Positions 50,822 to 59,612 of a stretch of DNA of 64,000 nucleotides are shown here, one piece after another. The translations under genes were made by a program, and so were the position numbers. A model generated the notes under the pieces. That model did no database searches. It was not told where the DNA came from and was given only the letters and a program-made list of their open reading frames with translations. The stretch spans positions 558,001 to 622,000 of the forward strand of contig NZ_JAPEHU010000001.1 of assembly GCF_028823635.1 (NCBI RefSeq), given 5' to 3'. This DNA comes from Demequina sp. B12. Lineage in GTDB: Bacteria; Actinomycetota; Actinomycetes; Actinomycetales; Demequinaceae. The stretch's first letter is position 1; each line of letters opens with the position of its first letter.

Positions 50822-51652
50822 CTAGTGCGGCAGCCCGGAGTCCACGAGGCCTCGCGACACGCGTAGGCGGTGCTGCACCTTGGCGAACACCAGGCGGTCC
50901 ACGAGCAGGGTGAACGCGAGCACGATCATGATGGTGGCCATCATCTCGGTGAGGTCGCCGGTTTCACGCGAACGGGAGATGACGTTGCCGATGCCTGTGC
51001 CGGACAGGGCACCGGAGAAGATCTCGCCGGCTACCAGGCAGCGGAAGGCAATGGACCAGCCGAGTTCCAGGCCGGTCATGATGCCGGGCAGGGCGGCGGG
51101 CAGGACCACGTGACGCAACAGTGTGCCGCCCTCGGCACCAAAGGTGCGTCCGGCGCGGATCAGCAGCGGTGGCACGTTCGCGACCGCGGACCGGGTGCCC
51201 AGCATGATGGCAGGCATCGCACCGATGGACACGACTGCAGCCAGCGACCACGGCGAGGTTCCCAGCACCACGGCGGCGACAGGGATCCACATCGAGGTAG
51301 GCATGCCTTGGAGGGCAGCGAGATACGGCGACAAACCGCGGTCGAGCCAGCGGCGTGAGCCCAACAGCAGCCCCAACGTCACCCCACCGATGGCCGCGAT
51401 CGCGAAGCACACCGTCATGAACAGGGTGATGCGGCCAAAGATGGACCACAGTTGCCCGTCCACGGCCATGCGCCACAGTTCGTCACCTGTCGCGGCAGGT
51501 CCAGGCAGGGTGTCGACAAACACTGACACCCCGGCCCACACCAGCAGCAGCACGGCGCCGGTGATGAGGATGGGGGCCGATGCTTTCCACCAGGGGGCAC
51601 GCGATCCCACCTGGACGCGCTGCTCGGTGGTGAGGGTGTCAGATCGCGACAT
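50822..51652 (-). CDS. ABC transporter permease of the sulfonate/nitrate/taurine type
   Basis: This 276-residue inner-membrane permease has about six helices and the BPD-type EAA loop region (RAGRTFGAEGGTLLRHVVLPAALPGIMTG near residue 170). ATG 51652 overlaps the end of the ATPase gene by 14 bases and has GGAG upstream; an upstream in-frame extension would run deep into the ATPase gene. Context with sir and cys genes suggests import of sulfonates or sulfate. The periplasmic binding protein usually encoded beside such a pair is absent here. Confidence 0.85.
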   Translation of the reverse strand: MSRSDTLTTEQRVQVGSRAPWWKASAPILITGAVLLLVWAGVSVFVDTLPGPAATGDELWRMAVDGQLWSIFGRITLFMTVCFAIAAIGGVTLGLLLGSRRWLDRGLSPYLAALQGMPTSMWIPVAAVVLGTSPWSLAAVVSIGAMPAIMLGTRSAVANVPPLLIRAGRTFGAEGGTLLRHVVLPAALPGIMTGLELGWSIAFRCLVAGEIFSGALSGTGIGNVISRSRETGDLTEMMATIMIVLAFTLLVDRLVFAKVQHRLRVSRGLVDSGLPH

Positions 51653-52442
51653 AGGAGTCTCCACCTTCACGGGGTGTGGTGATACCGAGCTGGTCGGCTT
51701 CGTCGAGCAGTCCGCGGACCTTGTGCGCCAACGTGACCACGCGCTCCGACTCGACCACGCGGGGGCGGGCGAGCGACACGGGTACGTCGCCGATGATTCG
51801 GCCGGGCCCTGAGGATAGGACGATGACACGGTCGCCTAGCGCCACCGCTTCACGCACGTTGTGCGTGACAAAGATGATGGTGGTTTCCGTGTCCGCCCAC
51901 AGCTCCTGCAACTCCACGTGCAGGCGGTCACGCGAGGGTGCATCGAGCGCGGAAAACGGCTCGTCCATGAGCAGGACTTGGGGTCGCATCGCGAATGCCC
52001 GTGCCAGTGCCGCACGCTGCCGCATGCCACCGGAGAGCTGATGCGGATGCAACGCCCCCGCGTCCGTCAGTCCCACCTTTGCCAGCCACGTCGCTACGGT
52101 TGCTTCCCGCTCGGCGGCAGAGATGCCCGCGTTCTTGAGCCCAAAGCCCACGTTGTCCGCCACGCTCATCCAGGGGAACAGCGCGTGGTCTTGGAACACC
52201 ATGACGCGGTCGAGCCCGGGGCCCTTGACTGCAGCATCGGCCACTGCGACGGAGCCTCGCGCGGGGCGGGTGTGCCCCGCGACAAGGTCCAGCAGCGTAG
52301 ATTTTCCGCAGCCCGACGGTCCCACCACGCACACGAACTGGCCAGCCTCAATGGTGAGGGTGATGCCATCGAGTGCAAGGCGGGCACGCTCACGACCGGG
52401 GAACGCCTGTGCGACGTCGGTGAGGGTGACGGATGCGCTCAT
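51639..52442 (-). CDS. ABC transporter ATP-binding protein (SsuB/TauB-like)
   Basis: This 267-residue ATPase has Walker A GPSGCGKSTLLD near residue 40, the Q-loop, the signature LSGGMRQRAALARA near residue 138, Walker B VLLMDEPFSALD and the switch His in FVTHNVREAV. The set matches the nitrate/sulfonate/taurine importer family. Its start shares a base with the cysN stop (TGATG), so sulfur activation and uptake genes are translationally linked. Confidence 0.9.
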   Translation of the reverse strand: MSASVTLTDVAQAFPGRERARLALDGITLTIEAGQFVCVVGPSGCGKSTLLDLVAGHTRPARGSVAVADAAVKGPGLDRVMVFQDHALFPWMSVADNVGFGLKNAGISAAEREATVATWLAKVGLTDAGALHPHQLSGGMRQRAALARAFAMRPQVLLMDEPFSALDAPSRDRLHVELQELWADTETTIIFVTHNVREAVALGDRVIVLSSGPGRIIGDVPVSLARPRVVESERVVTLAHKVRGLLDEADQLGITTPREGGDSYVAI

Positions 52443-53893
52443 CAGATGGAAACGTACGTGTCCTCGCCGGTACCGGGCACGTGTGCACGTGCGGTGCCGG
52501 CGGCTAGCGTGTTGCCATCCTGAGGGTCTACCAGGCAGAACGCGCCGGTGCGACGGTGTTTGCCGTAGTCCTCGACAGCGAGGGGCTGTGCCAACTGCAG
52601 CGTCACCACACCGATGTCATTGAGCAGGAGTTCGTGGCCTGGCTTGATCGACGAGTCCAGGGTCCCGCCCGGAAGCGAGATGTCGAGGATGCCGTCGATG
52701 GACGCGACCATGGCCTGAACGGTGGCGGAACCGTGCTGCACCAGGACGCGGTCGCGTACCCGCAGCGGCCGGTCGGTGAGCCACGCCACGTGTGCGTGGA
52801 ACTTCTTCGAGGCGCTGGTGGCGTCTTCCGCGGAGGACAACAGGTCGCCGCGGGCAATGTCGATCTCGTCAGCCAGGCGGATCGCCACTGACTGGCCTGT
52901 GTGGGCGGCCTCGAGCGGACCGGTCGCGGTGTCGATTCCGGCAACGGTGGTGCGCTTGCCCGAGGGCTGCACGACGACCTCGTCTCCCACGCGGACCGTG
53001 CCTTCGGCTACCTGGCCGGCGTATCCGCGGTACTCACGGAACTCCTCGGCAACAGCTGCATCCTGCGGACGCAACACCAGCTGCACGGGGAAGCGCCATC
53101 CGCTGGCCGCCGCTTCGGCATCGGCCGCCGTGGGGTGGGCCACTCCGTGGCGGTGTGCTGCCGCGAACTCGTCGGCGCCTTGGTCGATGGACGGGACCGT
53201 CTCGAGGATCTCAAGGACGGTGGGGCCCTCATACCAAGGGGTCGACTCCGACCGGGTTGCCACATTGTCGCCGTTCAACGCGGACACGGGCACCGTGATG
53301 ACGTTCGGCAGTCCCAGGGACTCCGCATGCGACTGCACGTGCTGCGCGATGGAACGGTACGGGCCCTGTGCATAGTCGAGCAGGTCGATCTTGTTGACCG
53401 CGACAATCACGTGGGGGACGCGCAGCAACGCTGCCACCGCAAGGTGACGCTTGGTCTGCTCCACCACGCCGTAGCGGGCATCGATCAAGACCACCAAAGC
53501 ATCGGCCGTGGACGCACCGGTGACGGTGTTGCGGGTGTACTGCACGTGGCCGGGGCAGTCCGCCAAAATAAACGTGCGGCGCGGGGTGGAGAAGTAGCGG
53601 TAGGCCACATCGATGGTGATGCCCTGTTCACGTTCGGCTCGCAGGCCGTCGGTGAGTAGCGCCAAGTCCACTTCTTCGGAGCCGCGCTCGCGGGACACCC
53701 GTTCGACGGCTTCGTATGCGTCGGCAAGGATGGATTTGGTGTCGTGCAGCAGGCGGCCCACCAGGGTGGACTTGCCGTCGTCAACGGAGCCAGCGGTCGC
53801 AAAACGCAACAAAGACGTGCGGGTGGTGTCGGGGACGGCCGATGCGTCAGAAGCGTCGTCGGTGGTGGTCACGGATTCGGGTGCGGCAGTCAT
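52442..53893 (-). CDS. cysN: Sulfate adenylyltransferase subunit 1 (GTPase) CysN
   Basis: CysN is the GTPase that drives ATP sulfurylase together with CysD. The 483-residue EF-Tu-like protein shows G1 GSVDDGKSTLVGRLL near residue 35, G3 DCPGH, and G4 NKID near residue 170, followed by beta-barrel domains. There is no fused C-terminal APS kinase domain, and no cysC gene lies nearby, which fits an APS-reducing route. It overlaps cysD by one base (TAATG). Confidence 0.95.
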   Translation of the reverse strand: MTAAPESVTTTDDASDASAVPDTTRTSLLRFATAGSVDDGKSTLVGRLLHDTKSILADAYEAVERVSRERGSEEVDLALLTDGLRAEREQGITIDVAYRYFSTPRRTFILADCPGHVQYTRNTVTGASTADALVVLIDARYGVVEQTKRHLAVAALLRVPHVIVAVNKIDLLDYAQGPYRSIAQHVQSHAESLGLPNVITVPVSALNGDNVATRSESTPWYEGPTVLEILETVPSIDQGADEFAAAHRHGVAHPTAADAEAAASGWRFPVQLVLRPQDAAVAEEFREYRGYAGQVAEGTVRVGDEVVVQPSGKRTTVAGIDTATGPLEAAHTGQSVAIRLADEIDIARGDLLSSAEDATSASKKFHAHVAWLTDRPLRVRDRVLVQHGSATVQAMVASIDGILDISLPGGTLDSSIKPGHELLLNDIGVVTLQLAQPLAVEDYGKHRRTGAFCLVDPQDGNTLAAGTARAHVPGTGEDTYVSI

Positions 53894-54810
53894 TAGAAGT
53901 ACCCCTCCTTCTTGCGGTCTTCCATGGCGGCCTCTGACAGCCGGTCGTCGGCGCGGGTGGCTCCCCGCTCGGTGATACGGGTGGAGGCGACTTCCGCGAT
54001 GACGTCGGAGACGGTGATCGCGGGGGATTCAACAGCGCCGGTGCAGGACGCATCGCCAACGGTGCGGTAGCGGACGGTGCGCTTGACGATCTGGTCGGTG
54101 TCGCGCACGCGCACACTGTGGTGCGGGGTCAACCACATGCCGTCACGCTGGAACACGTCACGTTCGTGCGCGTAGTACAGGGACGGAAGTTCGATGTTTT
54201 CGCGTTCGATGTAGCGCCACACGTCCAACTCGGTCCAGTTCGACAGCGGGAACACGCGCACGTGCTGGCCTGGTAGGTGGCGAGGGTTGTACAGGTTCCA
54301 CAGCTCGGGGCGCTGGTTTCGGGGGTCCCAGGCGCCAAACTCGTCGCGCAGTGACACCACGCGTTCCTTGGCGCGGGCCTTTTCTTCGTCACGGCGTGCC
54401 CCACCAAAGACCACGTCGTACTTGTGTTCGGCGATGCCGTCGAGCAAAGGAACGGTTTGCAACGGGTTGCGGGTGCCGTCGGGACGTTCGCGCAGGCGGC
54501 CGTCGTCGATGTAGTCCTGAACCTTCGCTACCTGGAGGCGCAGCCCCAAGCGTTCAACGGTGCGGTCGCGGAACTCCAACACTTCGTCAAAGTTGTGGCC
54601 GGTGTCGACGTGGAGCAGTTCGAACGGCACCTTGCCGGGCCAGAAGGCCTTGGTGGCGAGGTGCAGCACGACCACGGAGTCTTTGCCGCCGGAAAAGAGG
54701 AGGACTGGCTTGCGGGCGGTGCCCACTGCCTCCCGAATGATGTGGATGCCCTCGGCTTCAAGCGAGTCGAGCGTGCTCAGCCGAGCGGGCGCGGTTGTCT
54801 GATCAGTCAT
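53893..54810 (-). CDS. cysD: Sulfate adenylyltransferase subunit 2 CysD
   Basis: CysD is the catalytic subunit that makes adenylyl sulfate from ATP and sulfate. The 305-residue PP-loop ATPase has LLFSGGKDSVVVLHLA near residue 36, GGARRDEEKARAKER near residue 130 and the family-conserved C-terminal end RLSEAAMEDRKKEGYF. ATG 54810 gives the standard N-terminus (TLDSLEAEGIHIIRE). It lies 23 bases after cysH and overlaps cysN. Confidence 0.96.
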   Translation of the reverse strand: MTDQTTAPARLSTLDSLEAEGIHIIREAVGTARKPVLLFSGGKDSVVVLHLATKAFWPGKVPFELLHVDTGHNFDEVLEFRDRTVERLGLRLQVAKVQDYIDDGRLRERPDGTRNPLQTVPLLDGIAEHKYDVVFGGARRDEEKARAKERVVSLRDEFGAWDPRNQRPELWNLYNPRHLPGQHVRVFPLSNWTELDVWRYIERENIELPSLYYAHERDVFQRDGMWLTPHHSVRVRDTDQIVKRTVRYRTVGDASCTGAVESPAITVSDVIAEVASTRITERGATRADDRLSEAAMEDRKKEGYF

Positions 54811-54833
54811 AGGTGATGTCCTGCCGTGGTCGC

Positions 54834-55565
54834 TTACGTGTGCAGCCCGCACTCGGTCTTGTTCTGGCCTGCCCAGCGACCCGCCCTGGGGTCTTCGCCG
54901 GGCGCAACCTTGCGCGTGCATGGCGCGCAGCCGATGCTGGGGTAGCCGTCGGCCACCAAAGGGTTGCGGGGGAGGTCGTGGGTGACTTGGTACTGCTCAA
55001 CGGTGTCGTCGTCCCACAAGGCCAGGGGGTTGATCTTCACGAGGCCGTGCTTGGCGTCCCAGGACACCACCGGCATCTCGGACCGGGTGGCGGCGTCGAC
55101 GCGGCGGACCCCTGTGACCCAGGCGTCGTAGTTCGACAAGGCGCGGCGCAGCGGCTCCACCTTGCGCAACTGGCAGCACAGGTTGGGGTCGGTGCGGAAC
55201 AGGTCTTTGCCGTACTTCTGTGCTTGTTCGTCGATGCTGAGTTCGGATTCGGCGTTGACCACGGTGATGGGGAAGCGGCGTGCGGCCTCGTCGCGCGTGG
55301 CAATGGTTTCGGGGAAGTGATAGCCGGTTTCGAGGAACAGGATGTCCACGCCTTCAAGACGTGTACCGAACATGTGCGGCAGGATCGTGTCCTGCATCGA
55401 TGAGGCGACGATGAGGTTCTTGCCGAACGTGGCGACAGCCCAGTCGGCAATGTGTGCGGCAGAGGCGTTCTCTAACCGACCATTGACGACTGCGCAGGTC
55501 TCAGCGTTCCACTCCTGCGGGTTGAGCAGGGTGAGTGAGGCGGCTCCGGGGACAAGAGGGTTCAC
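54834..55565 (-). CDS. cysH: Adenylyl-sulfate (APS) reductase CysH
   Basis: CysH reduces activated sulfate to sulfite using thioredoxin. The 243-residue protein has the cluster-binding pairs CCQLRKVEPL near residue 130 and CAPCTRKV near residue 211, and the C-terminal catalytic Cys motif TECGLH. The two Cys pairs are the [4Fe-4S] marker of APS reductases rather than classical PAPS reductases; the absence of cysC agrees. Its GTG start overlaps the sir stop. Confidence 0.93.
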   Translation of the reverse strand: MNPLVPGAASLTLLNPQEWNAETCAVVNGRLENASAAHIADWAVATFGKNLIVASSMQDTILPHMFGTRLEGVDILFLETGYHFPETIATRDEAARRFPITVVNAESELSIDEQAQKYGKDLFRTDPNLCCQLRKVEPLRRALSNYDAWVTGVRRVDAATRSEMPVVSWDAKHGLVKINPLALWDDDTVEQYQVTHDLPRNPLVADGYPSIGCAPCTRKVAPGEDPRAGRWAGQNKTECGLHT

Positions 55566-57343
55566 TTGATGAGTTCCTCCTCAGCCCGGATAGCCCAGGT
55601 CGCGAAGCTTTCGTCGGGGCCGTTGCGGTCGGCAAGGTAGTTGGCTGTGACCCGCTCTACATATTCGGGCATACCGGTCTGGGTGACCTTGTGGCCGCGG
55701 ATCTTGCGGCCAAAGTCGTTGTCCTCGCCGTGGCCCAGGCGTCCACCCAGGTGAACCTGGAATCCCGGAACCTGTTCGCCTGACTCCTCATCGAGGACCA
55801 GCTGGCCCTTGAAGCCGATGTCCGCGACCTGCACACGTGCGCAGGAGTTGGGGCAGCCGTTGACGTGCACGGTGATGGGGTTGTCGAGTGTGGGGAACTT
55901 GTTGTCCAAGATCTCCACGACTTCCTTCGCGGTGGCCTTTGTCTCGACGATCGCGAGCTTGCAGTACTCGATTCCGGTGCACGCCATGACGTTGCGGTGG
56001 AACTCGCCGGGCTGTGCTTCTAGTTCGAGTGAACGCAGGCCGTTGACGACGTCGTTGACCTTGTCTTCCGGCACGTCCAGGATGAGGATTTTCTGCAACG
56101 GCGTGAGGCGGATCCGGTCCGAACCTGCGGCTTCCGCGATGTCTGCGATTGCGGCGAGCTTCTCACCGGAGATTCGTCCAGCGATGGGTGCAGCGCCGAT
56201 GTAGTAGCGGCCGTCGCGCTGTTCGTGGATTCCTACGTGGTCGCCACGGTCGCCGGGGCTGGCAACTTCGGGGCCAGGGCCGTCAGGAAGTGCCCATCCC
56301 AGGTAGTCCTCTTCGAGAACCTTGCGGAACTTCTCTGCACCCCACGCCTTGACCAGGAACTTCAGGCGCGCTCTGGTGCGGAGGCGGCGGTAGCCGTGGT
56401 CACGGAAGATGCCGATGACACCGGCCCATACTTCGGCAACCTTGGCGGGTTCAACGAACGCACCAAGACGCACACCCAGGTGGGGGTTGATGCTGAGACC
56501 ACCGCCAACCCACAGGTCGTATCCGACTCCCAGTTCGGGGTGTTCCACGGCCACGAACGCAATGTCCTGGACTTCGTGAACGATGTCGGGGATCCGGGTG
56601 CCGGAGATGGCGGACTTGAACTTACGGGGCAGGTTGGAGAACTCGGGGTTGCCGATGCCGCGTTCAATGATCGCTTGGATCGCGGGGGTGGGGTCGAGCA
56701 GTTCGTCCTTGGCGACTCCTGCGACGGGGGAGCCCAGGATGACGCGGGGCGAGTCGCCGCACGCCTCCGTGGTGAACAGTCCGACTTCTTCCACGCGGCG
56801 GAAGATCTCGGGAACGTCCTCAATGCGGATCCAGTGCAACTGAATGTTCTGGCGGTCGGACACGTCTGCGGTGTTCCGGCCAAAGTCCACGGAGATCTTC
56901 GCGATCGCACGTGCCTGTTCCACGTTCAGCTGGCCGCCGTCGGAGCGGACTCGCAGCATGAAGTATTCGTCGTCCAGCTGGTGCGGTTCGAGCACGGCGG
57001 TGCGGCCGCCGTCGATCCCGGGACGGCGCTGCGTGTACAGCCCCCACCAGCGGAAACGACCACGGAGGTCGCTGGGCGGAATGGACCAGAAGCCCCACTT
57101 GGAGTACATCGACTCGATGCGACCACGGACCTCGAGCGGGTCTCCCGTGGACTTGAACTCCTCGTTGGGGTTCAGGGGAGTGCGGTCACCGGCTGCCCAC
57201 TGGCCGTCCTTGGACGCGGTGTTCTTGCGTGCGGCTGCCTCACGCGTGCGGATCTTGCGCGCTTCCTCGCGGTGACGGCGGCGCTCTTCGGCGTCGGTCA
57301 GGGCGGCAGGGGTGCCAGGTGTAGTGGCATCGGCGTCAGTCAC
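55562..57343 (-). CDS. sir: Ferredoxin-type sulfite reductase (nitrite/sulfite reductase family)
   Basis: This enzyme reduces sulfite to sulfide with six electrons, probably from ferredoxin. The 593-residue protein has two ferredoxin-like half domains and the siroheme/[4Fe-4S] cysteines CTGIEYC near residue 454 and GCPNSC near residue 496. A Lys/Arg-rich stretch in the N-terminal 40 residues precedes the first domain. GTG 57343 follows GAGGAG by five bases. Context with cysH, cysD and cysN makes sulfite rather than nitrite the substrate. It heads the operon behind the leader peptide. Confidence 0.94.
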   Translation of the reverse strand: MTDADATTPGTPAALTDAEERRRHREEARKIRTREAAARKNTASKDGQWAAGDRTPLNPNEEFKSTGDPLEVRGRIESMYSKWGFWSIPPSDLRGRFRWWGLYTQRRPGIDGGRTAVLEPHQLDDEYFMLRVRSDGGQLNVEQARAIAKISVDFGRNTADVSDRQNIQLHWIRIEDVPEIFRRVEEVGLFTTEACGDSPRVILGSPVAGVAKDELLDPTPAIQAIIERGIGNPEFSNLPRKFKSAISGTRIPDIVHEVQDIAFVAVEHPELGVGYDLWVGGGLSINPHLGVRLGAFVEPAKVAEVWAGVIGIFRDHGYRRLRTRARLKFLVKAWGAEKFRKVLEEDYLGWALPDGPGPEVASPGDRGDHVGIHEQRDGRYYIGAAPIAGRISGEKLAAIADIAEAAGSDRIRLTPLQKILILDVPEDKVNDVVNGLRSLELEAQPGEFHRNVMACTGIEYCKLAIVETKATAKEVVEILDNKFPTLDNPITVHVNGCPNSCARVQVADIGFKGQLVLDEESGEQVPGFQVHLGGRLGHGEDNDFGRKIRGHKVTQTGMPEYVERVTANYLADRNGPDESFATWAIRAEEELIK

Positions 57344-57366
57344 CGAAACTCCTCGACTCGTATGTT

Positions 57367-57427
57367 CACTGATCAGTGGGAGCGAGGCCTTAGAGCACAA
57401 TCTGGACTGCGCTCGATGGCCGAGCGC
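57367..57427 (-). promoter_or_regulatory. Candidate attenuator structures between the Cys-rich leader and sir
   Basis: In the 112 bases between the leader stop and the sir start are a perfect hairpin, GCGCTCG (57409-57415) with CGAGCGC (57421-57427) and a 5-base loop, and a perfect 12-bp palindrome CACTGATCAGTG (57367-57378). The palindrome is about 12 bases from the sir ribosome binding site. Stalling on the leader cysteines could change which structure forms. Confidence 0.5.
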
Positions 57428-57455
57428 CCAGGGCTACATGCGTATCCGCGGGCGA

Positions 57456-57527
57456 CTAGGCCGACAGACACATGGCACAGCAGCAACGGCACATCAGGGA
57501 TGCGCGCATGGTGAGCTGCTGTGACAT
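57456..57527 (-). CDS. Polycysteine leader peptide of the sulfur-assimilation operon
   Basis: This 23-codon reading frame starts at ATG 57527 and stops with TAG at 57458-57456. Its second half reads MCRCCCAMCLSA: five cysteines in the last eleven codons, with three consecutive TGC/TGT codons. A CACAAT -10-like hexamer ends seven bases before the ATG, so the frame would be leaderless. Short cysteine-rich upstream frames before sulfur genes are known from mycobacteria, where cysteine-tRNA supply controls the downstream operon. Placement 112 bases before sir fits this. Expression is inferred, not shown. Confidence 0.7.
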   Translation of the reverse strand: MSQQLTMRASLMCRCCCAMCLSA

Positions 57528-57534
57528 GGCTGTG

Positions 57535-57540
57535 ATTGTG
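57535..57540 (-). promoter_or_regulatory. -10-like element CACAAT of the sulfur operon promoter
   Basis: On the minus strand CACAAT is followed by seven bases and the leader peptide ATG 57527, the same geometry as the other leaderless promoters, though its first base is not T. The -35 region is not obvious. Confidence 0.4.
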
Positions 57541-57578
57541 CCACAGCATCGTCGCCATGCCTAGCCCCCAATTTTCCG

Positions 57579-57584
57579 TAGACT
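57579..57584 (+). promoter_or_regulatory. -10 element TAGACT for the DUF4037 gene
   Basis: TAGACT lies about 57 bases before TTG 57642, predicting a leader of about 50 bases that carries GGAGGA. This promoter and the leader-peptide promoter diverge within about 40 bases of each other. Confidence 0.4.
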
Positions 57585-57641
57585 GGTGCAACGGCGCAGT
57601 CCCCGTCGCCGCAGTTGCTCGACGGACATGGAGGAATCTGG

Positions 57642-59612
57642 TTGAGGTCTCACCCGCACGACGGCCAGTTTCCCGTCGCTGACTTCCTGCAGCACCTCGA
57701 TCGTTTGTTCGCCACTCAGGCGGGACCCGAGGCGGCGCACGCTCACCTGGACCAGGGCATTGCGGATGCCACTGAGTTGGGGGACAAGCCTGCGTTGCTG
57801 ACGCTCCACAACGAGGCCGCAGGGTTTTTCCGGTCCATCAGCGCGCACCAAGAGTCGTTGCAGCACGCCGATGCTGCGCTCGCGTTGATCTCAGAACTTG
57901 ACTTGGGTGGCACGGAAGCGGACGCCACCACGCTGATCAACGCGGCCACCGCCCAACGGGCTGCCGGCCAGACGGCCGATGCGCGGGCCACTTACGAGCG
58001 CGCGCTCGCCGTTGCGACTGGGGTGTTCGGCGGTGATGACAGGCGGCTCGCTGCGTTGCACAACAACCTGTCCCTTGCGTTGACCGATGTGGGGGAACTG
58101 GACTCTGCGGTCGCCGAGCAGGAGCGGGCGCTCGCAATCCTCACCCAGGCGTCTGTTGACCCGGACCACGACCTGGACATCGCGATGACGCACGCGAACA
58201 TGGCGCATGCGTGCGACGCTGCCGGGGACGCCGATGCCGCGCTCACCCACTCGTCACGCGCCGTCGCGATCTTCCGTGCAGCCGGGGCTAGCGACGATCC
58301 GCACTATGCCGCGGCGCTCGCGGCACATGCCTCGATGCAGCTCCGTGCTGGCGAAGCTGTGGACGCCGTCGCACATCTGCAGCAAGCGCGCGACATCGTG
58401 GAGCGTGCTTACGGACGTGACAGCGAGGCGTACCGCGTCACCGCAGCAAACCTGATCGAAGCAACCGCCATCCGTGACGCGCTGGGCACCGACGGTCACG
58501 GCGCGGCTTCCCGCGCCACTGCGGCAGAAGCGGCCACGTCGACCACGCCGCCCAGCCCTGCATCCGTGGCCGAGCCCGGAAACGCATCGGCCCCCCGCGC
58601 CCGGCGGCCCCATATCCCCGGCCTTGACCTTGCTCGCGGCTATTGGCAAGACCATGGCCGGCCGATGATCGAGGAACGCTATCCCGCCTACGCCGGGCGG
58701 ATCGCGGCGGGACTCGTGGGCCACGGATCCGAGTGCTACGGCTTCGATGACGAGATCAGCACTGACCACGACTTTGGGGTGGGGTTCTGCCTGTGGCTCA
58801 CCACCGAGGACTACATGCTGATCGGCGCAGACCTCCAAGCCGACTACGAGTCCCTGCCCCTCGAATACCGGGGCTATCCGGTGCGCCCAGCGCTGGCAGC
58901 CCGTGACCAACGCCGGTCCGGAGTGTTCGAGATCGGCGACTTCTTCGAGTCCATCACCGGGCAACGCCACGCCCCCACCCCGGACGAACCGCACCTGTGG
59001 ATCAACCTCGACGAGGCCACTCTTGCCGCAGCGACCAACGGCGAAGTGTTCGCCGACCCGCACGGGGCCTTCGGCGCCGCTCGCGGCTCATTCCAACGCA
59101 TGCCGCGCGACGTGTGGCTTACCCACCTGTCGCGGCGCGCCGGACTCGCCGCCCAAACCGGCCAATACAACGTTCCCCGCATGCTTGACCGGGGTGACGG
59201 AGAAGCCGCCTGGGTGAGCGTCGGAGAGTTCGTCGGTGCAGCATCGTCCCTCGTATTCCTCCTAAACCGGCCAGCTCAGGTGGGGTACTTGCCGTACTAC
59301 AAGTGGCGCTTCGCTGCCCTGCGTGAGCTCCAGTCCAGGCCATTGGCACGCCTTGGCTCCGTGGTGGACGAGCTCACCGCAGTGATGCGTCTGGCATCCG
59401 CCGCCTGCCTGGGTGGTGCCGCCTTTGGCGAAGGTGGCAAGGGGTCCTCGGGAGCCCGGGAAGCGCTCACGGACCGGATCGAGTCCATCTGCGCCGCGAT
59501 CGCAGACGAGTTCAGAATCCAAGGGCTGTCAGGTTCCGCCTCCACCTTCCTGGAACACCACCGTGCCGAACTGACCGTCCGGATCGCCGATGCTTGGTTG
59601 AGGCAGCAATGA
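57642..59612 (+). CDS. TPR-domain protein fused to a DUF4037 nucleotidyltransferase-like domain
   Basis: This 656-residue protein begins at TTG, chosen because GGAGGA ends six bases upstream. Residues about 20-290 form six or so TPR-like helical pairs (ATYERALAVATGVFGGD, AVAEQERALAILTQ, AVAHLQQARDIVERA). After an Ala/Thr/Pro-rich linker comes the DUF4037 domain with a nucleotidyltransferase-type motif GHGSECYGFDDEISTDHDFG near residue 360, where Ser, Asp and Asp would bind metal. DUF4037 proteins are usually shorter and lack the repeat half. It is coupled to a DUF4125 gene (ATGA). Substrate is unknown; transfer of a nucleotide to a protein or small molecule is a guess. Confidence 0.8.
   Translation: MRSHPHDGQFPVADFLQHLDRLFATQAGPEAAHAHLDQGIADATELGDKPALLTLHNEAAGFFRSISAHQESLQHADAALALISELDLGGTEADATTLINAATAQRAAGQTADARATYERALAVATGVFGGDDRRLAALHNNLSLALTDVGELDSAVAEQERALAILTQASVDPDHDLDIAMTHANMAHACDAAGDADAALTHSSRAVAIFRAAGASDDPHYAAALAAHASMQLRAGEAVDAVAHLQQARDIVERAYGRDSEAYRVTAANLIEATAIRDALGTDGHGAASRATAAEAATSTTPPSPASVAEPGNASAPRARRPHIPGLDLARGYWQDHGRPMIEERYPAYAGRIAAGLVGHGSECYGFDDEISTDHDFGVGFCLWLTTEDYMLIGADLQADYESLPLEYRGYPVRPALAARDQRRSGVFEIGDFFESITGQRHAPTPDEPHLWINLDEATLAAATNGEVFADPHGAFGAARGSFQRMPRDVWLTHLSRRAGLAAQTGQYNVPRMLDRGDGEAAWVSVGEFVGAASSLVFLLNRPAQVGYLPYYKWRFAALRELQSRPLARLGSVVDELTAVMRLASAACLGGAAFGEGGKGSSGAREALTDRIESICAAIADEFRIQGLSGSASTFLEHHRAELTVRIADAWLRQQ

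Follow-up and report, generated by a model that had tools for sequence, protein, structure and literature searches.

A cysteine-rich leader frame ahead of the sulfur assimilation operon

How is the sulfur assimilation operon of Demequina sp. B12 controlled? In the 64,000-nt stretch of DNA analyzed here (the window), six genes lie on the minus strand in the order sir–cysH–cysD–cysN–ABC ATPase–ABC permease. The first, sir (55562–57343; GTG start codon at 57343–57341), encodes a sulfite/nitrite reductase with Pfam domains NIR_SIR and NIR_SIR_ferr; its top NCBIfam models are of the nitrite reductase/NirA type, with scores below the model cut-offs. Domain matches identify cysH (54834–55565), cysD (53893–54921) and cysN (52442–53893), and NCBIfam matches below curated cut-offs identify the transporter ATPase (SaoA/taurine/nitrate-like, 51639–52442) and permease (50822–51829). 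The original prediction placed a leaderless polycysteine leader of 23 codons upstream of sir and proposed that cysteine supply attenuates the entire operon. The frame is present as described (57527–57456, minus strand). It translates to MSQQLTMRASLMCRCCCAMCLSA followed by stop, with five Cys codons; a short leader ORF precedes a cysteine-pathway operon (sir–cysH–cysD–cysN), as in polycysteine attenuators. Among all ATG/GTG-to-stop frames of 10–40 codons on both strands of the window (n = 1498, nested starts counted separately), 14 have at least five Cys codons, and only three have five Cys within eight codons, all of them nested starts of this frame. The sir leader frame is far above chance, and it is conserved.

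Conservation was assessed in one genus, Demequina. The 72 usable upstream regions collapse to 41 distinct leaders, many species being present twice, and the window is the same locus as one of the collected regions (L038). Two regions were left out, one beginning within sir (L031) and one from a gammaproteobacterium (L037), and 9 of 48 non-Demequina regions, which had no tblastn anchor, were excluded ahead of counting. In two leaders (L027 and L035), an SD–GTG pattern, not tblastn, defined the start of sir. An ORF of 21–24 codons with at least three Cys and an M-C-x-x-A end occurs in 69 of the 72 regions and 39 of the 41 distinct leaders, so the frame and its Cys codons are kept among relatives. 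The exceptions, three regions representing two distinct leaders, have 2 or 1 Cys and retain the M-C-x-x-A end. All 41 leaders finish with M-C-(L/P)-x-A-stop; the Met ahead of the last Cys and the Ala ahead of the stop are invariant. The last Cys codon (57470–57468), fourth upstream of the stop, is TGT in every leader, as against 216 TGC and 2 TGT in the sir stretches at the same loci. The number and placement of the remaining Cys vary between leaders.

The CACAAT hexamer that had been pointed out seven bases upstream of the leader ATG (57540–57535) turns out to belong to an extended –10-like element, TG-G-CACAAT (57543–57535), with no –35 match. Four of its positions, T57543, G57542, A57539 and T57535, are invariant in all 41 leaders, and in each the extended –10 (TG-n-nAnnnT) ends 6–7 nt upstream of the ATG, which supports the predicted leaderless start. 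A sigma-70 consensus scan of 57300–57650 returned no two-hexamer site. Judged by the conservation of its Cys codons, its –10 element and spacing, and the pairings described below, a predicted leaderless, cysteine-sensing leader is well supported.

Genome-wide, the pattern TGYTGYTGYN6TGY has 30 matches (22 for the reversed pattern), and among the frames of up to 60 codons at those matches, the sir leader alone was judged leader-like. Another polycysteine pattern gave four further matches, one of them a leader of cysK, and a third gave zero; these patterns cover a part of all possible Cys-rich frames. The polycysteine leader ahead of cysK is unrelated to that of sir and is present at all 23 Demequina loci inspected. 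It is led by a Shine–Dalgarno (SD) sequence and appears independently built, ahead of cysK–cysE.

Conserved helices that share one strand

Downstream of the leader Cys cluster, several strands can pair in alternative ways. At the center is a hub strand, E1 (GGGCGCTCGGCC, 57429–57418), whose first ten bases are invariant. Strand E0 (57462–57450) combines GGCC of the leader tail (57462–57459) with CGCCC beyond the stop (57454–57450) and pairs with E1 to form helix P1. In the alignment, 86.6% of P1 cells are paired, compared to 22–49% for slid registers, and two-sided changes number 12 versus 6.0 in shuffles, with 0 of 500 shuffles reaching 12; the covariation score is equalled by two slid versions. 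Pairing is nearly complete in the outer helix (99.4% of cells) and reaches only 60% in the inner stem. E1 can alternatively form hairpin P2 with E2 (57427–57409), in which GCGCTCG (57427–57421) pairs with CGAGCGC (57415–57409). All 287 cells of this helix are paired (100%), in 41 of 41 leaders. Its loop varies from 5 to 7 nt, and six leaders have CGGGCGC as the 3' arm, which keeps a U-G pair in the RNA. Because E1:E2 and the core of E0:E1 are nearly invariant, covariation cannot test either.

Other pairings surround this pair of helices. E2 has an alternative partner in E3, in a computed 9-bp hairpin (57414–57406 with 57401–57393); one group and L073 combine an A-to-G change in E2 with T-to-C in E3, whereas in L002 and L034 only the C is present. 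A further strand, E4 (AGGCCTCGCTCCC, 57390–57378), has E1 and the sir SD (GAGGAG, 57354–57349) as possible partners; GGAG of the SD is invariant in all 41 leaders. Pairing between the 5' end and the Ala-Met codons is seen in 97.2% of cells, with 6 two-sided changes versus 1.0 in shuffles (0 of 500 as many). A candidate helix around the leader stop, H (57469–57460 with 57453–57444), is paired in 90.2% of cells in register versus 29–49% when slid; its covariation was not above that of shuffles (87 of 500). With 1.0–1.5 expected pairs in free RNA, H was rejected as a strong default-off hairpin.

The original prediction had noted two RNA structures between the leader stop and the sir ribosome-binding site, a 7-bp hairpin and a 12-bp palindrome. 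Both exist, and their fates differ. The hairpin is P2, conserved throughout. Of the 41 aligned leaders, that of the window alone has the palindrome (CACTGATCAGTG, 57378–57367) in perfect form; it is probably incidental and, not being conserved, was discarded as an element of the device.

A 76-position RNA model had a single match in each of 36 Demequina genomes out of 37; the remaining one (G019) also lacks a sir match. A match in genome G049 (34.7 bits), which lies inside an apparent response-regulator gene, was judged to be chance. Searching 57200–57900 with Rfam covariance models gave nothing above gathering score, only two chance-level matches.

Ribosome position and helix choice

We folded each leader with a ribosome at defined positions, on transcripts ending at E2, and counted a helix as leading when its margin exceeded one expected pair. 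E0:E1 leads in 35 and 37 of 41 leaders when the A site holds codon –7 and –6, respectively. When it holds codon –4, the last Cys codon, the outcome is divided (E0:E1 in 16, E1:E2 in 19), and at –2, –1 or stop, all 41 leaders favor E1:E2 by that margin. The computed changeover thus resembles that of a trp-type attenuator in falling near the final Cys codon, which is invariant. Untranslated RNA prefers E0:E1 in 37 of 41 leaders, and so there is no default-off fold. Scanning 57300–57650 for intrinsic terminators yielded 0 terminator-like sites and no U-tract terminator.

We consider it probable that the conserved Cys-rich leader, at the predicted 5' end of the operon message, is a cysteine-responsive attenuator with two exclusive helices. 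Where the ribosome stands on the Cys codons would select between E0:E1 and E1:E2. In the computed folds, E0, just 3' of the stop codon, pairs with E1 while the ribosome is at the Cys cluster; a ribosome beyond the last Cys codon covers E0, so that E1 folds as the E1:E2 hairpin. When cysteinyl-tRNA is scarce, the ribosome would be held on the Cys codons, E0:E1 would form and the operon would be on; plentiful cysteine would favor E1:E2 and reduce expression. Attenuation of the whole operon by cysteine supply, as originally suggested, is putative and plausible. The least certain step is the output, which may mainly be access to the sir ribosome-binding site, closable by E4 acting as a conserved anti-SD.

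A possible output at the sir ribosome-binding site

The mutual fit of E4 and SD beats permuted partners (p = 0.0016, 0.009 and 0.03 with 26, 16 and 10 representatives). In the permutation test on 41 rows, p ≤ 0.001 was also reached by some pairings to which no role is assigned. The E4:SD energy, –11.6, is little better than the –10.1 seen with shuffled partners (sd 4.1). Across the 41 leaders, the site is mostly closed in every computed state, its mean accessibility staying at 0.20–0.22 at each ribosome position; relative to folds with E1:E2 kept, stalling increases opening in 10 of 41 leaders and decreases it in 7. In the window's own leader, stalling at –7 acts in the expected direction only when compared with folds in which E1:E2 is held, GGAG being 0.44 open on stalling and 0.16 with E1:E2 held. 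At equilibrium, with E1:E2 unheld, openness of the site is 0.29 for a ribosome at stop and 0.23 for one stalled at –7. On shorter transcripts, GGAG openness is 0.14 in free RNA, 0.18 when the ribosome stalls on the last Cys codon and 0.26 when it is at stop. Release of E2 alone was rejected as a means of opening the SD (0.19 versus 0.17). In full-length folds, a ribosome at stop favors E1:E4 and frees the SD from the anti-SD, the opposite of what a cysteine-repressed operon calls for. Equilibrium folding was rejected as a test of SD opening, ribosome positions making no useful difference or acting in the unexpected direction.

Alternative explanations

That direction would suit an alternative with the same sensor and the same E0:E1/E1:E2 switch in which the output is premature transcription termination, probably by Rho. 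Translation of the leader through its stop would leave the C-rich E0–E1 stretch single-stranded and able to recruit Rho, whereas stalling would bury it in P1. Full-length folds, with E1:E4 or E1:E2 on completed translation, match this direction; the stretch has 10–18 C and 4–8 G in 26–32 nt, keeping E1:E2 leaves it more exposed than stalling does in 23 of 41 leaders (less exposed in none), and Rho was suggested for mycobacterial cys leaders in 2005, in a passage of PMC1262725. Yet the gain in openness is small (mean 0.46 versus 0.40; 0.41 versus 0.37 in the window), the window's stretch is just slightly enriched in C (10 C, 7 G), the terminator scan came back empty and the conserved anti-SD strand is left without explanation. 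We regard the Rho reading as doubtful. Plain translational attenuation in the M. smegmatis style, with a stalled ribosome preventing the fold that masks the sir ribosome-binding site while E0, E1 and E2 form no two-state switch, seems to us unlikely. It has experimental precedent in a similar type of leader ahead of cysteine-pathway genes (passages of PMC9031893 and PMC13236596) and is favored by the mutual fit of E4 and SD, but stalling gives no mean opening of the site in folds, and it offers no reason for E0, E1 and E2 to be so strictly conserved.

Two further readings have little probability. The nearly invariant inverted repeat GCGCTCG-N5-7-CGAGCGC, 3' of the promoter, could be a DNA operator bound by a sulfur regulator, the leader ORF being secondary. 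The spacing of its arms varies from 5 to 7 nt, however, and the CGGGCGC arm of six leaders breaks DNA symmetry while preserving RNA pairing; Cys codons and E0 would also go unexplained, and an operator is very improbable. Slightly less probable still is a functional small Cys-rich protein, metal-binding for example, conserved in its own right. The highly conserved C-terminal (A/V)-M-C-(L/P)-x-A speaks for such a protein, but synonymous positions are constrained (TGT in 41 of 41 where sir uses TGC), the bases encoding this C-terminus are also engaged in RNA pairings, and the other Cys vary in number and place, down to 2 or 1 in two leaders.

Comparison with known cysteine leaders

A cysteine-responsive attenuator in Demequina would have known relatives, and the claim that Cys-rich upstream frames serve as mycobacterial cysteine sensors finds precedent in passages of PMC1262725, PMC9031893 and PMC13236596. 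Cysteine leader peptides upstream of actinobacterial cys operons were predicted in 2005 by Seliverstov et al. (PMC1262725), and leaderless polycysteine ORFs were shown to be active in M. smegmatis by Canestrari et al. in 2020, as related in PMC9031893, PMC9094748 and PMC13236596. According to these three papers, the mycobacterial attenuators share a leaderless, Cys-rich short ORF ahead of cysteine-pathway genes, leaderlessness being a prediction in Demequina, and act through ribosome speed on Cys codons, as proposed here. The Demequina system departs from them in its peptide and in its conserved, mutually exclusive helices around an invariant hub, bearing out the expectation that this case has a peptide and RNA structures of its own; its cysteine response is a prediction. 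The candidate leaders of the Mycobacterium and P. acnes cys operons and of B. longum cbs have Cys runs near the short-ORF stop and no terminator seen, like Demequina (PMC1262725). Its authors also report no conserved candidate terminator hairpins for the 2005 leaders, whose mode of regulation they called unknown; in contrast, Demequina has conserved alternative helices. For uORFC-8-2, upstream of cysS in Rhodobacterales, ribosome-mediated attenuation was likewise predicted on the basis of a short ORF with tandem Cys codons, although that leader is alphaproteobacterial, has a U-run terminator and uses mainly UGC codons (PMC8632094). Trp-type attenuators and the M. tuberculosis ilvB1 leader share the logic by which a stalled ribosome exposes, and a finishing ribosome masks, an antiterminator-like strand (a passage of PMC13236596), but the sir leader has no detected U-tract terminator. 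It would be a well-conserved new version of a switch known from mycobacteria.

More tentatively, Demequina may possess a ribosome-run cysteine regulon, made up of the leaderless sir leader, with its three-partner hub across UGU, and the independent cysK–cysE leader, and following trp-type logic without an intrinsic terminator. The three partners of E1, exchanged while the ribosome passes the invariant UGU, would be E0, the hairpin arm E2 and the anti-SD E4. Should this hold, attenuation by polycysteine short ORFs in response to cysteine would extend well past mycobacteria, in a design whose conserved two-state RNA is testable arm by arm. Since the 2005 survey (PMC1262725) describes no conserved terminator hairpins for mycobacterial cys leaders and leaves the mode of action open, Demequina would provide a tractable case for leaders that lack a U-tract terminator. 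Unrelated leaders at sir and cysKE within one genus would suggest that ribosome-sensed control by cysteine has been assembled repeatedly.

The sir leader ORF and its promoter

The leader ORF lies on the minus strand at 57527-57456, encodes the peptide MSQQLTMRASLMCRCCCAMCLSA and ends at a TAG stop codon. All features named in the original prediction were recovered from the window sequence on the same strand: the frame itself, a CACAAT hexamer (57540-57535), a 7-bp inverted repeat (57427-57421 with 57415-57409), the palindrome CACTGATCAGTG (57378-57367), the Shine–Dalgarno (SD) element GAGGAG of sir (57354-57349) and the GTG start codon of sir (57343-57341). Among 1498 ATG- or GTG-to-stop frames of 10–40 codons in the window, three have five Cys in eight codons, and all three are nested starts of the sir leader frame. 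By domain and family matches, the first gene downstream encodes a NIR_SIR reductase and is followed by cysH, cysD, cysN and genes for an ABC-type ATPase and permease. A RarD/EamA transporter gene, 140 bases past the permease, comes next among the genes found on the minus strand. The divergent neighbour (57615-59612, plus strand) has TPR_12 and DUF4037 domains.

A scan of the leader region found no two-hexamer sigma-70 site. All 41 distinct Demequina leaders carry a TG-n-nAnnnT element whose four named bases never vary and whose 3' end falls 6 or 7 bases 5' of the ATG, the arrangement to be expected if an extended –10 drove a leaderless start.

Conservation of the leader in Demequina

A protein search of named genomes yielded 37 sir loci, one of them from a gammaproteobacterium; by name, the remaining 36 comprise 34 Demequina, one Demequinaceae and Actinobacteria bacterium HGW-Actinobacteria-4. 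A search of a second genome set recovered sir from the window's own genome and from 35 of 36 others of the genus. Regions upstream of sir gave 72 Demequina rows, with many species drawn from both collections and the window itself counted twice, and these reduced to 41 distinct leaders (L031 and L037 excluded). An ATG-started ORF of 21–24 codons with at least three Cys, ending M-C-x-x-A-stop, was found in 69 of the 72 rows and 39 of the 41 distinct leaders. The alignment of close relatives proposed in the original prediction shows the frame to be kept and, in most leaders, its Cys codons too. The Cys-poor exceptions, D. pelophila (L029, identical to L048) with two Cys and genome G009 (L073) with one, have the M-C-x-x-A ending intact. 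In L073 and L029, the downstream helices are retained despite one or two Cys codons. The sir gene of G009 was split across two pieces in the search, reflecting decay or sequencing error.

Counting codons back from the leader stop, Ala at –1, Cys at –4 and Met at –5 are invariant (41/41). Other Cys occur at –7 in 40 leaders, –8 in 32, –11 in 27 and –10 in 17. For the last Cys, all 41 leaders use TGT, a codon that occurs only twice, against 216 TGC, in the sir stretches from these loci. The third base of this last Cys codon can pair with a post-stop A (37 leaders) or G (four) in helix H, around the leader stop codon, and this pairing may be the reason that TGT is fixed.

Conserved RNA pairings

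Four helices were counted in the 41-row alignment A1, with slid registers and shuffles as controls. Helix P0 joins the 5' end, CAUGGC in most leaders, to GCCAUG of the Ala-Met codons (57523-57528 with 57471-57476, one of the six pairs being mismatched in the window), with 97.2% of cells paired versus 11–70% in slid registers. Its two-sided changes number six (shuffles, 1.0) and fall at a single pair, at which six leaders have A-U in place of G-C. P0 would lock up the 5'-terminal start codon when the ribosome is absent. Helix P1 pairs E0 (leader tail GGCC plus post-stop CGCCC) with the hub strand E1, GGGCGCUCGGCC, and includes an inner stem; 86.6% of cells are paired versus 22–49% in slid registers, with 12 two-sided changes versus 6.0 in shuffles (0/500 shuffles as high). 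Its covariation score of 0.063 was matched by two slid versions, and its innermost three pairs formed in only 60% of cells. Helix P2, between E1 and E2, is the 7-bp hairpin of the original prediction, with 100% of cells paired across the 41 leaders. Helix H was paired in 90.2% of cells versus 29–49% in slid registers, with covariation no higher than in shuffles. Because P1 and P2 share the hub, they are mutually exclusive.

Segment fit was assessed by permuting partners among clade representatives (16 or 10) or among all 41 rows. With 16 and 10 representatives, respectively, p was 0.003 and 0.007 for the 5' end and Ala-Met codons, 0.002 and 0.27 for the inner stem, 0.009 and 0.03 for the anti-SD strand E4 and the SD, and 0.09 (suggestive) and 0.06 for E2 and its alternative partner E3. 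No signal was seen for five comparison pairings in the representative-based test. With all 41 rows, pairings of no proposed role (e.g. tail/E3, E0/E3) also reached p ≤0.001, indicating that relatedness inflates that test. E1:E4 has the strongest duplex energy (mean –16.6 kcal/mol over 41 leaders), and E1 is nearly invariant, making co-variation uninformative.

Ribosome position and the predicted switch

For folding, transcripts were cut off at E2 to mimic the point reached by RNA polymerase, and a 28-nt ribosome footprint was masked codon by codon; a helix was scored as ahead when it led by more than one expected pair. E0:E1 was ahead in 35 of 41 leaders with the A site at –7 and in 37 with it at –6. 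Leads for E0:E1 versus E1:E2 were then 22 versus 16 at –5, 16 versus 19 at –4 (the last Cys) and 2 versus 35 at –3, and E1:E2 was ahead in all 41 at –2, –1 and the stop codon. By these counts no Cys codon lies beyond the changeover, and the invariant last one coincides with it; this control-codon geometry, as computed here, is that of a trp-type attenuator. Counting against a switch, free RNA preferred E0:E1 in 37 of 41 leaders, and at upstream Cys positions –8 to –11 E0:E1 was ahead in only 28–31.

The output could be the sir ribosome-binding site or Rho. In full-length folds with translation finished, E1 lay on E4 (7.3 expected pairs) and E4:SD fell to 1.5 from 4.3 in free RNA. Alone, this departure of E4 from the SD would open sir under plentiful cysteine. 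The site itself was 0.20–0.22 open in every ribosome state of these folds. In shorter transcripts, GGAG openness was 0.14 in free RNA; a ribosome stalled on the last Cys codon brought it to 0.18 and one at the stop to 0.26. With E1:E2 held, the site was 0.20 open versus 0.21 when stalled at –7 (stalled higher in 10/41, lower in 7/41). The window's leader followed the expected direction in this comparison (GGAG 0.44 stalled versus 0.16 with E1:E2); without holding E1:E2, its site was 0.29 open at the stop versus 0.23 stalled. For a Rho route, the C-rich stretch between E0 and E1 would have to open with E1:E2; compared with the stalled state, E1:E2 raised its openness in 23 of 41 leaders and lowered it in none. 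E4 retains its anti-SD and fits its own SD, and for this reason the ribosome-binding site is favoured as the likelier output in these models, at a chance little better than even.

Other lineages and a second leader

RNA model R1, covering the Ala-Met codons to E2, had one match in each of 36 Demequina genomes out of 37 searched, the exception being G019; its single match in 22 further genomes of the order was weak and lay inside a coding region. G019, of the same genus and 94% complete, has neither a sir match nor the leader element, yet carries a divergent Cys-rich frame before cysK. Of 48 non-Demequina upstream regions (eight from the order, 40 chosen from 126 matching genomes of the class), 39 were anchored, and nine of these have a frame of at most 45 codons with three Cys in eight codons, L108 and L115 looking weak. 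Regions L110 and L121, from one family that we take to be Mycobacteriaceae, have in common ARRH(V/I)D and KRVC followed by a Cys cluster, differing from the Demequina peptide. Unrelated Cys-rich short ORFs precede sir in other actinobacterial families, as in L101, L107 and L079 (here at –219 to –114, counted from the sir match), which suggests that such leaders originated repeatedly. One of these short ORFs ends MCSCQCSCR and is preceded by a TAGATT element.

A pattern search of the window's own genome found a second polycysteine leader, MSNAPRTDATFAPASTMCTCAPCLCCCMCAEGCCL, 141 nt 5' of cysK-cysE (L140:1652-1759, G000:C30). All 23 Demequina cysK loci examined (own plus 22) have a Cys-rich short ORF ahead of the gene, against none of the seven other genera of the order that were examined; L157, L163 (the most divergent) and L165 were entered from an earlier in-frame start. 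The cysK leader is not leaderless, since in most loci an SD-like AAAGG or GGAGG stands 5' of its ATG. Its stop codon adjoins a mostly conserved AGCGCTGGC / GCCAGCGCT pair.

Relation to known cysteine leaders

Literature searches covering only a minority of subscription journals showed no published account of the Demequina sir element. The kind of leader is already known: Cys leader peptides were predicted in 2005 upstream of cys operons in Mycobacterium and P. acnes (PMC1262725), and leaders of this kind were shown to act in M. smegmatis by Canestrari in 2020, as described in passages of PMC9031893, PMC9094748 and PMC13236596. A passage of PMC8632094 describes uORFC-8-2. For Streptomyces lividans, passages of PMC8079986 give eight leader peptides and term none cysteine-dependent; the metL one contains C-M-C-R-R-M-C. 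Judged by its sequence conservation, the Demequina sir leader is a real, well conserved cysteine leader, with a two-state fold in computed models, and it likely functions as a cysteine sensor. It occurs in a lineage different from that of the known cases and, as originally proposed, has a peptide and RNA structures distinct from theirs, the conserved RNA being of a two-state design in the computed folds.
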